From: Bacteroidia bacterium
GTDB taxonomy: Bacteria > Bacteroidota > Bacteroidia > Bacteroidales > VadinHA17
Assembly (NCBI GenBank): GCA_026391215.1
Contig: JAPLDX010000049.1
Span: 1-32,279, forward strand
Direction: 5' to 3'
Length of the DNA: 32,279 nt
Part shown: piece after piece, positions 16,078 to 19,148 of the stretch
How positions within the stretch are numbered: position 1 is the stretch's first letter
Layout: each line of letters starts with the position of its first letter
Made by a program: the position numbers and the translations under genes
Notes under the pieces: generated by a model
The model's database searches: none
What the model was told of the DNA's origin: nothing
The model's input: only the letters and a program-made list of their open reading frames with translations

Positions 16078-16701
16078 TTACTTTTTAGCTTCATCGCCGC
16101 TTTTTATGCCAAGTTTGCTCTCAACCATCTTAATTATCTCATTAGCTTTAGCTTCATCATCACTTTCTACGGTTACAACCACACCGTCTTTCGCAATTAC
16201 ATATTTGGTTACATCGGCACTCTCTCCATGATTTTCTGTGACTTTCCCGTCTTTAATAACAATGACCTCTTCACCTTCCCATTCATCCATTTTTTCTCCG
16301 GTACCCTTATCATTGCTATAGATATAAAGATGTCCCTTATCTCCTGCAGATGATACTGTCCATTTTGCTGAATCAGAACTCATTACGAAGATGTCCTTTT
16401 CCATATGTTTATTCCCGTTCTCATCAGCTTCGATGCTTACAATAACTTTTTTCCCCTCTGAAACATGCTTAAGGCCTGCTTCAGGTTCACCTATGAAAAT
16501 TACATTTCCGTCCTTTAGTTTTATTACCTCAGGATGAGAGGTTCCAGTTATAATGGTATCCAGAACAGTTTTAGCTCCTGATCCATCGTCAACAATGACC
16601 TTGATTTTCTTTTCATTCTTCTTTTCCTGGCCAAATGCCATCGATAAAGGAATCGAACAGGCCATAAATATTAAAAATAGGTTTCTGGTTATTCTTTTCA
16701 T
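16078..16701 (-). CDS. small secreted protein divergent from the two-component system
   Basis: A 207-residue protein I cannot place in a named family. A signal peptide (residues 1-24, ending MAFGQ) predicts export. The mature part is highly charged, rich in Lys, Glu and Asp, with beta-like stretches (KIKVIVDDGSG, EVIKLKDGNVIFIG, EEVIVIKDGKV, VVVTVESDDEAKANEI) and no cysteines. It is transcribed away from the histidine kinase gene 129 bp distant, from a -7 box (16725-16732) that lacks a good -33 element, with four GTTAA-type repeats in the activator position. It is therefore a likely target and perhaps a periplasmic modulator of that system, by analogy with CpxP; this is inference. The reading frame continues for 12 Lys/Thr-rich codons past its stop. 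Confidence 0.75.
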   Translation of the reverse strand: MKRITRNLFLIFMACSIPLSMAFGQEKKNEKKIKVIVDDGSGAKTVLDTIITGTSHPEVIKLKDGNVIFIGEPEAGLKHVSEGKKVIVSIEADENGNKHMEKDIFVMSSDSAKWTVSSAGDKGHLYIYSNDKGTGEKMDEWEGEEVIVIKDGKVTENHGESADVTKYVIAKDGVVVTVESDDEAKANEIIKMVESKLGIKSGDEAKK

Positions 16702-16724
16702 GACTGGCTGGTTTTGATTTATAA

Positions 16725-16732
16725 CAAAATTA
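16725..16732 (-). promoter_or_regulatory. -7 box TAATTTTG for the secreted protein gene
   Basis: An exact TAnnTTTG match on the minus strand, 24 bp before the ATG at 16701, with the transcript start expected near 16718. No TTG lies about 20 nt upstream, which suggests that an activator is needed. Confidence 0.6.
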
Positions 16733-16753
16733 GTTCATTACCTGTATGATACA

Positions 16754-16790
16754 GTTAATTTCAGGTTAATAAGAGTTAATGAAAAGTTAA
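16754..16790. promoter_or_regulatory. candidate OmpR-type regulator binding site: four phased GTTAA(T) direct repeats
   Basis: GTTAAT occurs at 16754-16759, 16765-16770 and 16775-16780, and GTTAA at 16786-16790. The spacings are 11, 10 and 11 bp, so all lie on one face of the helix, as expected of tandem OmpR/PhoB-type winged-helix dimers. The array is about 36-72 bp upstream of the predicted start of the secreted gene and about 41-77 bp upstream of that of the kinase gene, activator positions for both. Confidence 0.65.
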
Positions 16791-16818
16791 AACGCGTGCG
16801 AATTTTAGTCGGATAAGT

Positions 16819-16826
16819 TAAATTTG
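16819..16826 (+). promoter_or_regulatory. -7 box TAAATTTG for the kinase/regulator operon
   Basis: An exact TAnnTTTG match ending 4 bp before the GTG at 16831. With the usual start 5-7 nt after the box, the transcript would begin at or next to the GTG, giving a leaderless message. No -33 TTG is visible. Confidence 0.6.
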
Positions 16827-16830
16827 TGTC

Positions 16831-18456
16831 GTGAGCAGAAATAAATTCATAGGCCTCATCTTCATGATGCTCTTTTCGATTATCGGGATCATCTGGGTTC
16901 AGGTAATCTGGATAAGGAATGCAGTGGCTATCCGGAACGAAAGCTTCGATGCTTTTGTATCAGCAAGCATAAGGGATGCTGCAAAGTCAATTGAGTCATC
17001 CAGGAAGATGAGCTTCTTCAATGATAATATCCTGAAGGCTCCTTATGAATCGGAAAATCAGTCTGCTTCCGTTTCTGATTATGTAAATATAGAAAGTTAC
17101 ACTGTTGGAGGTGAAGGTAATTTCAGCGTCAGGATCACCAATCAGTCAGTTACAAAGAATCCCGGTGAAAAGCCTGTTATCATAACTCATGATACGACGA
17201 TTACCTCTGATTCGGAATCTTTTGTTGTGAGATCATCTGATGATCCTGGCAAAATTACCATTATAAAAAGCAGAGATTCTGCTCTGAAAAGCACAGGATC
17301 AGTTTATATAAAACAGCAGGAATTTATTGACTGGGTTAAAAAGAGGCAAGATGAATTCCAGAATATGAGCGATCAGATGATTGCCGACGTGTATCAGTGG
17401 GAAAAGACCATGGAGCTTGATAATCAGGCAATTGAATATGCACTGAACCGGTCATTGATGTTTTCAAATATACGGACACCTTTTGAATTTGCTGTAATCA
17501 GGGACGGTGTTGTAGCTGATGGCACTTTTAAGAAATCGAACAAAAATGATTTCCTTAAAAGCAGATATATGGTGCGCCTGTTCCCGGATAATATTATCCG
17601 CCAGGATCTTATCCTTTCTGTGGTTTTCCCTGAACGTGCCAATTATATCCTGGGATCATTAGCCTGGATGCTTGGAGGATCCTTTCTCTTTTCACTGATC
17701 ATCCTTGCCACATTTGCACTGAGCCTCTTTTTCCTTATAAGGCAAAAAAAGATATCGGAAATGAAATCTGATTTCCTCAATAATATGACTCACGAGTTCA
17801 AAACCCCGATAGCAACAATTTCACTGGCAGCAGATACAATAACCAATCCAAAGGTAATAAGTGACGAATCGAGCATCAGGCATTTCATAAGCCTGATAAA
17901 GAAGGAAAACAGCAGGATGAATAAGAAGGTTGAAACAATTCTGCAGATTGCATCGCTCGACAAAAAGGAAATAGAATTTAAGTACGAAAGCATCTCACTT
18001 CATTCTGTAATTGAACATGCAGTAGAAACAATAGAAATTTTGCTATTGCAGAGAGGCGGTACGATAAAGCTCAATCTTGATGCCTCTCAGCCCTCAATTC
18101 AGGGAGACAGCGAGCACCTGACAAACCTGGTGAACAATCTCCTGGATAATGCAATTAAATATTCTGAGGGTGCGCCCGAAATCTTTATTGAAACAAAAAA
18201 TAATGAAAAAGGCATTATCTTGTCAGTCAGTGATAAGGGAATAGGAATGAGCAAAACCGTACAGCATCGGATTTTCGATAGATTTTACAGACAAGCCTCC
18301 GGCAACGTGCACGATGTAAAAGGTTTTGGTCTCGGACTGAATTATGCCCTTGCTATTGTTGATGCCCATAAAGGAGATATAAAAGTATTCAGTGAGCCGG
18401 GAAAGGGCAGCCGGTTTGATGTATTTTTACCATTTAACCTGGAGAACGGAAAATGA
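16831..18456 (+). CDS. membrane sensor histidine kinase
   Basis: A 541-residue class I kinase. TM1 is at about residues 7-28 and TM2 at about 278-304, enclosing an extracytoplasmic sensor region of about 250 residues with no family I recognise. The HisKA domain has the phospho-acceptor His321 in MTHEFKTPIATIS, and the ATPase domain shows NLVNNLLDNAIKYS (N box), SDKGIGM (G1) and GFGLGLNYA (G2). No HAMP domain is evident. The GTG at 16831 keeps the basic residues before TM1 and is preferred to the ATG at 16864, which would start inside the membrane segment. The regulator gene overlaps the stop codon by 4 bp (ATGA). The pair resembles the RprXY type of Bacteroidetes systems, but I would not assign that name. 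Confidence 0.93.
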   Translation: MSRNKFIGLIFMMLFSIIGIIWVQVIWIRNAVAIRNESFDAFVSASIRDAAKSIESSRKMSFFNDNILKAPYESENQSASVSDYVNIESYTVGGEGNFSVRITNQSVTKNPGEKPVIITHDTTITSDSESFVVRSSDDPGKITIIKSRDSALKSTGSVYIKQQEFIDWVKKRQDEFQNMSDQMIADVYQWEKTMELDNQAIEYALNRSLMFSNIRTPFEFAVIRDGVVADGTFKKSNKNDFLKSRYMVRLFPDNIIRQDLILSVVFPERANYILGSLAWMLGGSFLFSLIILATFALSLFFLIRQKKISEMKSDFLNNMTHEFKTPIATISLAADTITNPKVISDESSIRHFISLIKKENSRMNKKVETILQIASLDKKEIEFKYESISLHSVIEHAVETIEILLLQRGGTIKLNLDASQPSIQGDSEHLTNLVNNLLDNAIKYSEGAPEIFIETKNNEKGIILSVSDKGIGMSKTVQHRIFDRFYRQASGNVHDVKGFGLGLNYALAIVDAHKGDIKVFSEPGKGSRFDVFLPFNLENGK

Positions 18457-19148
18457 ACATGAAGCCTTTTAATATATTTCTTGTCGAAGATGATCTGAGC
18501 TTCGGATCAGTATTGAAATCCTATCTTGAGATTAATGATTTTTCCGTTGACTGGATTGATGACGGGAAATATGCTGTTGATCATTTCAGAAAAGGGATGT
18601 TTGATATTTGCATCCTCGATGTAATGCTGCCTCATGTTGACGGTTTTACGATCGCAAATGAAATACGACAGATCAATAATTCAATACCTATCATATTCCT
18701 GACAGCCAAAAAGCTTAAGGAGGATGTCCTGAGGGGTTATGGGGCAGGAGGGGATGATTATATAACCAAACCATTTGATACTGATATTCTCCTGGCTAAA
18801 ATACGTGCAATAGTCGCACGGCTTGATTTTCAGAGCGGGACAAAGGATATTTTTGAAATTGGCAAGTTCATTTTCAATGCAAAGCTCAGAACACTGACAG
18901 CAGGTGATGATGAGAAGAAGTTGTCACCCAAGGAAGCTCAATTGCTGGAGCTCCTGGCCGTTAATCCTAATGCATTGATAAGCAGAGAGATGGCGCTTAA
19001 GAAGATATGGGGCAACGATGATTATTTTACTGCACGAAGTATGGATGTCTATATCACCAAGCTTAGAAAGATGCTGTCAGACGATCCACACCTTAATATA
19101 AAGAATATTCATGGGGCTGGATTCCAGCTTATCGTCAGCAAGGAGTGA
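18453..19148 (+). CDS. OmpR/PhoB-family response regulator
   Basis: A 231-residue regulator. The receiver domain (about 1-125) has the acidic pair Glu12-Asp13, phospho-acceptor Asp56 in CILDVMLPHVDGF, Thr84 in IIFLTAK and Lys106 in YITKPF. The C-terminal winged helix (about 135-230) shows LSPKEAQLLELLAVNPNALISREMALKKIW and the recognition-helix region RSMDVYITKLRKML, ending HGAGFQLIV. It is translationally coupled to the kinase by an ATGA overlap. A second ATG two codons in is also possible. It probably binds the phased GTTAA repeats at 16754-16790. Its 3' end overlaps the convergent cdd gene by 14 bp. Confidence 0.95.
   Translation: MNMKPFNIFLVEDDLSFGSVLKSYLEINDFSVDWIDDGKYAVDHFRKGMFDICILDVMLPHVDGFTIANEIRQINNSIPIIFLTAKKLKEDVLRGYGAGGDDYITKPFDTDILLAKIRAIVARLDFQSGTKDIFEIGKFIFNAKLRTLTAGDDEKKLSPKEAQLLELLAVNPNALISREMALKKIWGNDDYFTARSMDVYITKLRKMLSDDPHLNIKNIHGAGFQLIVSKE

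Follow-up and report, generated by a model that had tools for sequence, protein, structure and literature searches.

A conserved, helically phased GTTAA array is a likely autoregulatory operator between a two-component system and a divergent secreted-protein gene in Bacteroidia

The regulator binding sites that have been worked out in Bacteroidota are few. One belongs to PhoP of the PhoPR two-component system of Riemerella anatipestifer: according to the available text of the two reports (PMC9603813, PMC5399024), DNA affinity purification sequencing gave a motif with TTTAACA as its most conserved part, electrophoretic mobility-shift assays (EMSAs) showed that PhoP binds moxR as well as its own promoter, and moxR, batA and batC were down upon deletion of phoP. 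Its authors describe the motif as highly similar to that of Escherichia coli ArcA, whose sites consist of two to five direct repeats, mostly 11 base pairs (bp) apart and bound by adjacent dimers (PMC3798270, available text). For RprY of the RprXY system of Porphyromonas gingivalis, binding to its own promoter was detected by EMSA (PMC3646045, PMC6032018, available text). Here we describe a stretch of 32,279 nucleotides (nt) from a Bacteroidia bacterium (contig JAPLDX010000049.1 of assembly GCA_026391215.1; hereafter the window), in which four GTTAA repeats lie between a two-component system and a divergent gene for a probably exported protein.

Our results point to autoregulation through this array, which likely drives the secreted-protein gene as well; the direction of its effect is less sure. 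More specifically, we think it quite probable that the neighbouring regulator uses the array as its operator: stacked head-to-tail dimers would occupy it, with activation of both divergent sides the most likely outcome. The features of the locus are as follows.

16754..16790, plus strand: putative operator, four GTTAA units at 16754, 16765, 16775 and 16786, spacing 11-10-11.
16775..16791, plus strand: units 3 and 4 (GTTAATGAAAAGTTAAA), the kinase-proximal invariant core, exact in 35/35 orthologs.
16754..16769, plus strand: units 1 and 2, proximal to the secreted-protein gene, with at least one unit lost in some genomes.
16819..16826, plus strand: -7 box of the kinase operon, TAAATTTG, with transcription predicted to begin at the start codon itself (16831).
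16725..16732, minus strand: -7 box of the secreted-protein gene, TAATTTTG, of the form TAnnTTTG.
16078..16701, minus strand: 207-residue protein, probably exported, with a signal-peptide-like N-terminus (by eye).
16831..18456, plus strand: sensor histidine kinase, HisKA and HATPase_c.
18453..19148, plus strand: OmpR-family response regulator, Response_reg and Trans_reg_C.

An earlier reading of the letters of the window, made without database searches (the sequence-only reading), had placed GTTAAT at 16754, 16765 and 16775 and GTTAA at 16786 on the plus strand, with spacings of 11, 10 and 11 bp, and both positions and spacings proved exact to the base. No other GTTAA pair at 10 or 11 bp spacing was found on either strand of the window. 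The triple pattern gave no match in 100 dinucleotide shuffles, and 300 first-order Markov windows contained neither triples nor quadruples and, on average, 0.133 pairs each. Among 395 genomes of the phylum, the exact four-unit pattern was detected at eight sites in six genomes, the reversed control giving one. A fifth GTTAA at 16817, overlapping the kinase -7 box, is present in only 9 of the 35 kinase orthologs, including that of the present genome, and was therefore left out of the array count.

A kinase ortholog is present in 35 of the 36 genomes sampled from the genus, G032 being the one without. Units 3 and 4 are exact in every ortholog, all four units are found in 30/35, and unit 4 begins 44 or 45 bp ahead of the kinase start codon throughout; that codon is GTG here and in G007, and ATG in all 33 remaining orthologs. 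Column by column, the spacers are mostly more variable than the GTTAA units, except chiefly for GAAAA between units 3 and 4. The secreted-protein gene occurs in 18 of the 36 genomes (17 of 35 others plus the present one) and adjoins the array in 17, one of which, G023, was counted by inference across a contig end and not from continuous sequence. Conservation in relatives with the same gene order had been proposed as a check by the sequence-only reading, and it held: all four units are kept in 17/17 such genomes. Loss of unit 1 or 2 was seen in none of these 17 versus 5 of the 18 genomes without the adjacent gene (p = 0.045), and the secreted-gene -7 box was present in 17/17 versus 7/18 (Fisher p = 0.0001), both tests ignoring shared ancestry, which counts against leaning on them heavily. 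Relative to the kinase start, the position of this box is -105 to -107 in all 17 adjacent-gene genomes. In G024, the secreted-protein gene is located on a separate contig with its own complete array, and the kinase keeps an array as well. The earlier proposal that the array is shared by the secreted-protein gene thus gained support of an indirect kind, from the nearly fixed box distance, from the confinement of unit 1 and 2 losses to genomes without the adjacent gene and from the G024 copy.

The two G024 contigs, C36 and C58 (L174, L182), each carry an identical stretch of ~50 bp that includes the full array, and the split may be either a rearrangement or an assembly chimera.

Both -7 boxes were found where the sequence-only reading had put them, in the TAnnTTTG form, and neither promoter, read from the sequence, has TTTG or TTG near -33. 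On the kinase side, TAnnTTTG stands at -12 from the start codon in 34/35 orthologs. According to the available text on Flavobacterium psychrophilum, the sigma-A box spans -12 to -5 from the transcription start (PMC9723704), and by this position the kinase transcript is predicted to start on the start codon itself, at 16831, that is, to be leaderless. For the secreted-protein gene, a start site at ~16720 and a 19-nt leader are predicted. The array accordingly spans -77 to -41 from the predicted kinase start, as the earlier reading had it, and about -34 to -70 on the secreted side, a refinement of its -36 to -72. Leaderless mRNAs are a minority in the phylum: 5.5% of mRNAs with a mapped start are leaderless in F. 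psychrophilum (PMC9723704), and ~3.7% of the 5' untranslated regions of Bacteroides thetaiotaomicron are shorter than 10 nt, the examples in the available text including two sensor kinases. The kinase -7 box ends 4 nt ahead of the start codon (16819-16831) in 34/35 orthologs.

To look beyond the genus, 80 regulator loci were scanned, 57 from outside it (L005-L061) and 23 further ones. Among the 57, four units before the kinase were found at 11-10-11 in L005, L006, L007, L042, L050 and L054 and at 10-10-11 in L041. The density of tandem GTTAA pairs was compared for 36 of the 57 loci, excluding 18 without a recognised kinase and three with an unsure kinase start: 36 pairs fell in the 11.5 kb upstream of the 36 kinases versus five in the remaining 345.6 kb of these loci. 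The upstream pairs occur at 19 of the 36 loci, and 34 of the 36 share the orientation of the kinase. As a control, 22 of the 23 further loci, more distant and with no Bacteroidota title, were free of GTTAA pairs throughout; the remaining one, from Sphingobacterium, had one pair.

The regulator matched Response_reg (94.6 bits) and Trans_reg_C (64.8 bits), both over their cutoffs. Its best NCBIfam model was RprY (NF051850), with 276 bits against a cutoff of 370. In an 83-row tree, from which L034 (too short) and four duplicate loci had been excluded, it fell with support 100/99 into a clade with regulators of Carboxylicivirga, Salinivirgaceae, Saprospiraceae, Chitinophagaceae and Weeksellaceae (L008/L010). 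The Porphyromonas and Prevotella regulators, taken as RprY, form a separate clade, which also holds another regulator of the present genome (G000:C133) that scored closer to the RprY model (351.5 bits) and likewise under the cutoff. An RprY identity was therefore rejected for the present regulator on both score and clade, although binding to the own promoter in P. gingivalis (available text) and the best-scoring model are points of likeness with RprXY of Bacteroides and Porphyromonas. ArcA, a member of the same superfamily, resembles it in that direct repeats are clustered about one helical turn apart; the present regulator, however, scored 94 bits with the ArcA model, whose cutoff is 334, and the E. 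coli role described in the available text is largely repression of carbon oxidation genes. Two regulators of the tree, L009 (titled Azovibrio) and L053 (Krumholzibacteriia, on a long and weakly placed branch), group with Bacteroidota and possibly come from misbinned contigs.

Of the peptides encoded by the published R. anatipestifer phoPR primers, GYQLGAD, TLATDG and KGQGLG match the Chryseobacterium pair of the clade, and GEEGLK matches its other Weeksellaceae regulator, L008 (GEQGLK in Chryseobacterium). Riemerella PhoP thus appears to belong to the clade of the present regulator, a link made through Weeksellaceae proxies in the tree and primer peptides only. As far as the available text goes, the systems are alike in the motif (TTTAACA includes TTAAC, the complement of GTTAA), in self-binding and in moxR as a target: here, TTAAC/GTTAA repeats stand at the own promoter and at moxR, the full TTTAACA not being present in every unit. 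They differ in that the self-binding site of Riemerella PhoP occupies -156 to -121 relative to the start codon, and in that the available text mentions neither a divergent secreted-protein gene nor a four-unit array. The suggestion of the sequence-only reading that this may be an undescribed module consequently holds for the secreted family, which has no Pfam or NCBIfam model, and not for the regulatory part, given that an apparent same-clade system has been described as PhoPR. The kind of operator is already known, and the module is a new variant with an unnamed secreted family. Apart from the Riemerella paper, we found no described GTTAA array or Cpx-like system in Bacteroidota among the literature matches listed, which were judged from titles and the starts of abstracts and are no proof of absence.

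Repeats of the same kind adjoin other genes. The moxR start adjoins a conserved second GTTAA triple in 18 of 22 genus loci, all 22 having been selected for a match to the triple pattern, and four genomes examined outside the genus have a TTAAC pair within 420 bp upstream of moxR. For htrA, whose product combines Trypsin_2 and PDZ (two proteins tested), a GTTAA pair was found at the dapF-htrA junction in 23/23 genus loci scored and 3/8 others; scoring used the best dapF matches only and covered 23 of 24 genus and 8 of 12 other loci (the rest having the dapF start outside), with nine genus genomes omitted for a weak or partial dapF match and three for none. As this pair abuts the dapF start, that start could itself account for some of the conservation. 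Three of the seven four-unit sites outside the present genome lie at the dapF-htrA junction; two of the three were examined, and in both a -7 box follows 32 or 33 bp after the start of the last unit, which is also the arrangement at the kinase. In the present genome, GTTAA pairs also precede, among others, two HlyD-type genes and a gene for a MacB-type permease, and 24 of 29 GTTAA pairs are intergenic (18/23 once merged to separate sites) versus 6 of 30 reversed controls, a comparison that covered 30 of 31 reversed-pattern sites.

By eye, an inverted repeat around AAAGATATGAATCTTT recurs in the region upstream of htrA in the genus (L235, L294-L317), which also has a GCATGATCTTTGTAAAACA block. 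Short separate matches to only the first 21-28 dapF codons were noted at G006:C84, G031:C119 and G020:C4; those of G006 and G031 could be remnants retained because the htrA control site abuts them, and for G020 a frame break is as likely. The present genome also has a second two-component system (L232:1078-4035 = G000:C38:122577-125534) with a GTTAA triple at 11-11, which lies between the kinase and a divergent, probably exported protein of ~240 residues.

Several observations weigh against the operator reading or its extension to other genes. At 17 of the 36 kinase loci from outside the genus, both Weeksellaceae loci being in this set, the kinase has no pair near it, and the Riemerella PhoP sequence itself is not among the rows of the tree. 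The genome-wide number of pairs is not raised (29 GTTAA versus 31 reversed), making pairs alone, though mostly intergenic, a weak predictor of a regulon. In the present genome, GTTAA repeats also stand ahead of the kinases of two other systems with RprY-like regulators, C133 and C38; these regulators might therefore cross-bind, and the moxR and htrA sites could belong to one of them. Finally, in the available Riemerella data, 34 of the 50 direct candidates that changed upon phoP deletion went up and 16 down, meaning that Riemerella PhoP represses more genes than it activates. This last count favours the view that binding here mainly represses one or both promoters, as does the description of P. 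gingivalis RprY as a repressor bound at chaperone promoters, at that of nqrA and at its own (available text). We regard repression as rather unlikely: the array lies upstream of both -7 boxes, an activator position, both promoters are without a -33 element, and Riemerella moxR, batA and batC fall when phoP is deleted. The sequence-only reading had the regulator activating both its own operon and the secreted-protein gene; the part of it that stands is a self-control site for an OmpR-family regulator, on the 17/17 conservation and the Riemerella precedent, activation being less sure.

The array might instead serve the kinase-regulator operon alone, with the secreted-protein gene a passenger that has an independent promoter, and its persistence in 18 genomes without the adjacent gene, 13 of them with all four units, fits this. 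That arrangement is unlikely, in our judgement, considering that unit 1 and 2 losses are confined to the non-adjacent genomes (0/17 versus 5/18), that the distance between the array and the secreted-gene -7 box hardly varies and that the separated gene of G024 has its own array. There is also a low probability that another GTTAA-reading regulator, RprY-like C133 or C38, is the main binder and the array a cross-talk node. The repeats of both systems, and the self-binding of RprY in P. gingivalis, would allow for it; each system, however, comes with repeats of its own, which usually point to self-control, units 3 and 4 stay with the present kinase in 35/35 genomes, and the published Riemerella motif belongs to a regulator linked to the present clade. 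A chance or slippage repeat without function has the AT-richness of intergenic DNA in its favour and almost nothing left of its probability, being ruled out by the conservation over 35 genomes and the absence of Markov triples, besides the mixed 11-10-11 spacing and dissimilar spacers. Under the operator reading, the regulator at 18453 would dock on the array as stacked head-to-tail dimers, would most likely activate its own kinase-regulator operon and, from the same array in the opposite direction, would activate the secreted-protein gene. Units 3 and 4 would serve mainly the kinase, with units 1 and 2 adding control of the secreted-protein gene.

The array gives a genetic context to a secreted family without a Pfam or NCBIfam name. 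The 207-residue protein matched no Pfam family at E 0.001 and no NCBIfam family. A database search with it matched 91 proteins; an alignment of 53 of these with the query showed conserved ends, a variable middle and a C-terminal TKYVIAKDGVVVTVE block, and the gene was absent from 24 genomes that represent other genera of its order. Structure prediction from the 54 sequences gave a mean predicted local distance difference test score (pLDDT) of 52 and a predicted template modelling score of 0.26, too poor for a fold search, with values above 70 only at an N-terminal helix and a C-terminal hairpin-helix (about 165-197). A profile search against solved structures returned no match below E 0.13. 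Comparison of its profile with the kinase sensor region gave a probability of 4%, leaving shared ancestry of the two unsupported.

In the Cpx system, cpxP lies divergent to cpxRA, and the CpxP/Spy domain corresponds to the Pfam family LTXXQ. The available text of PMC8831704 describes further points of likeness: a two-component operon in E. coli, an exported product of the regulon for which inhibition of the kinase has been proposed, and DegP and efflux genes among the targets, HtrA being among the candidates here. The Cpx box, GTAAA(N5)GTAAA, is similar in form, whereas the units here are GTTAA with 5 or 6 bases between them. The lack of any Pfam match in the secreted protein covers the CpxP/Spy domain too, and the regulator scored 100.9 bits with the CpxR model (cutoff 341). 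Judged from the missing CpxP-type domain, the other half-site and a score far under that of CpxR, the locus is not a member of Cpx.

The candidate targets htrA, moxR-bat and the HlyD-type and MacB-type genes nevertheless suggest a phylum counterpart of Cpx, and the phased array that recurs before related kinases offers a sequence handle for the targets of the clade. The htrA, moxR-bat and exporter genes with GTTAA sites would then form an envelope-stress regulon and, in the most speculative step, the exported protein would dampen the kinase, as proposed for CpxP on CpxA. The proposal in full, that Bacteroidota own a Cpx-like stress response acting through GTTAA arrays, in which a PhoP-type clade controls itself, a kinase-silencing exported feedback protein, HtrA, MoxR-Bat and exporters, with the kinase made from a leaderless mRNA, is tentative and we consider it doubtful as a whole.

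In a distant family (G338 and G346; L290-L293), exact four-unit arrays number up to three in a genome. Some of these arrays lie near probably exported proteins, and no kinase motif was seen within 1.5 kb.

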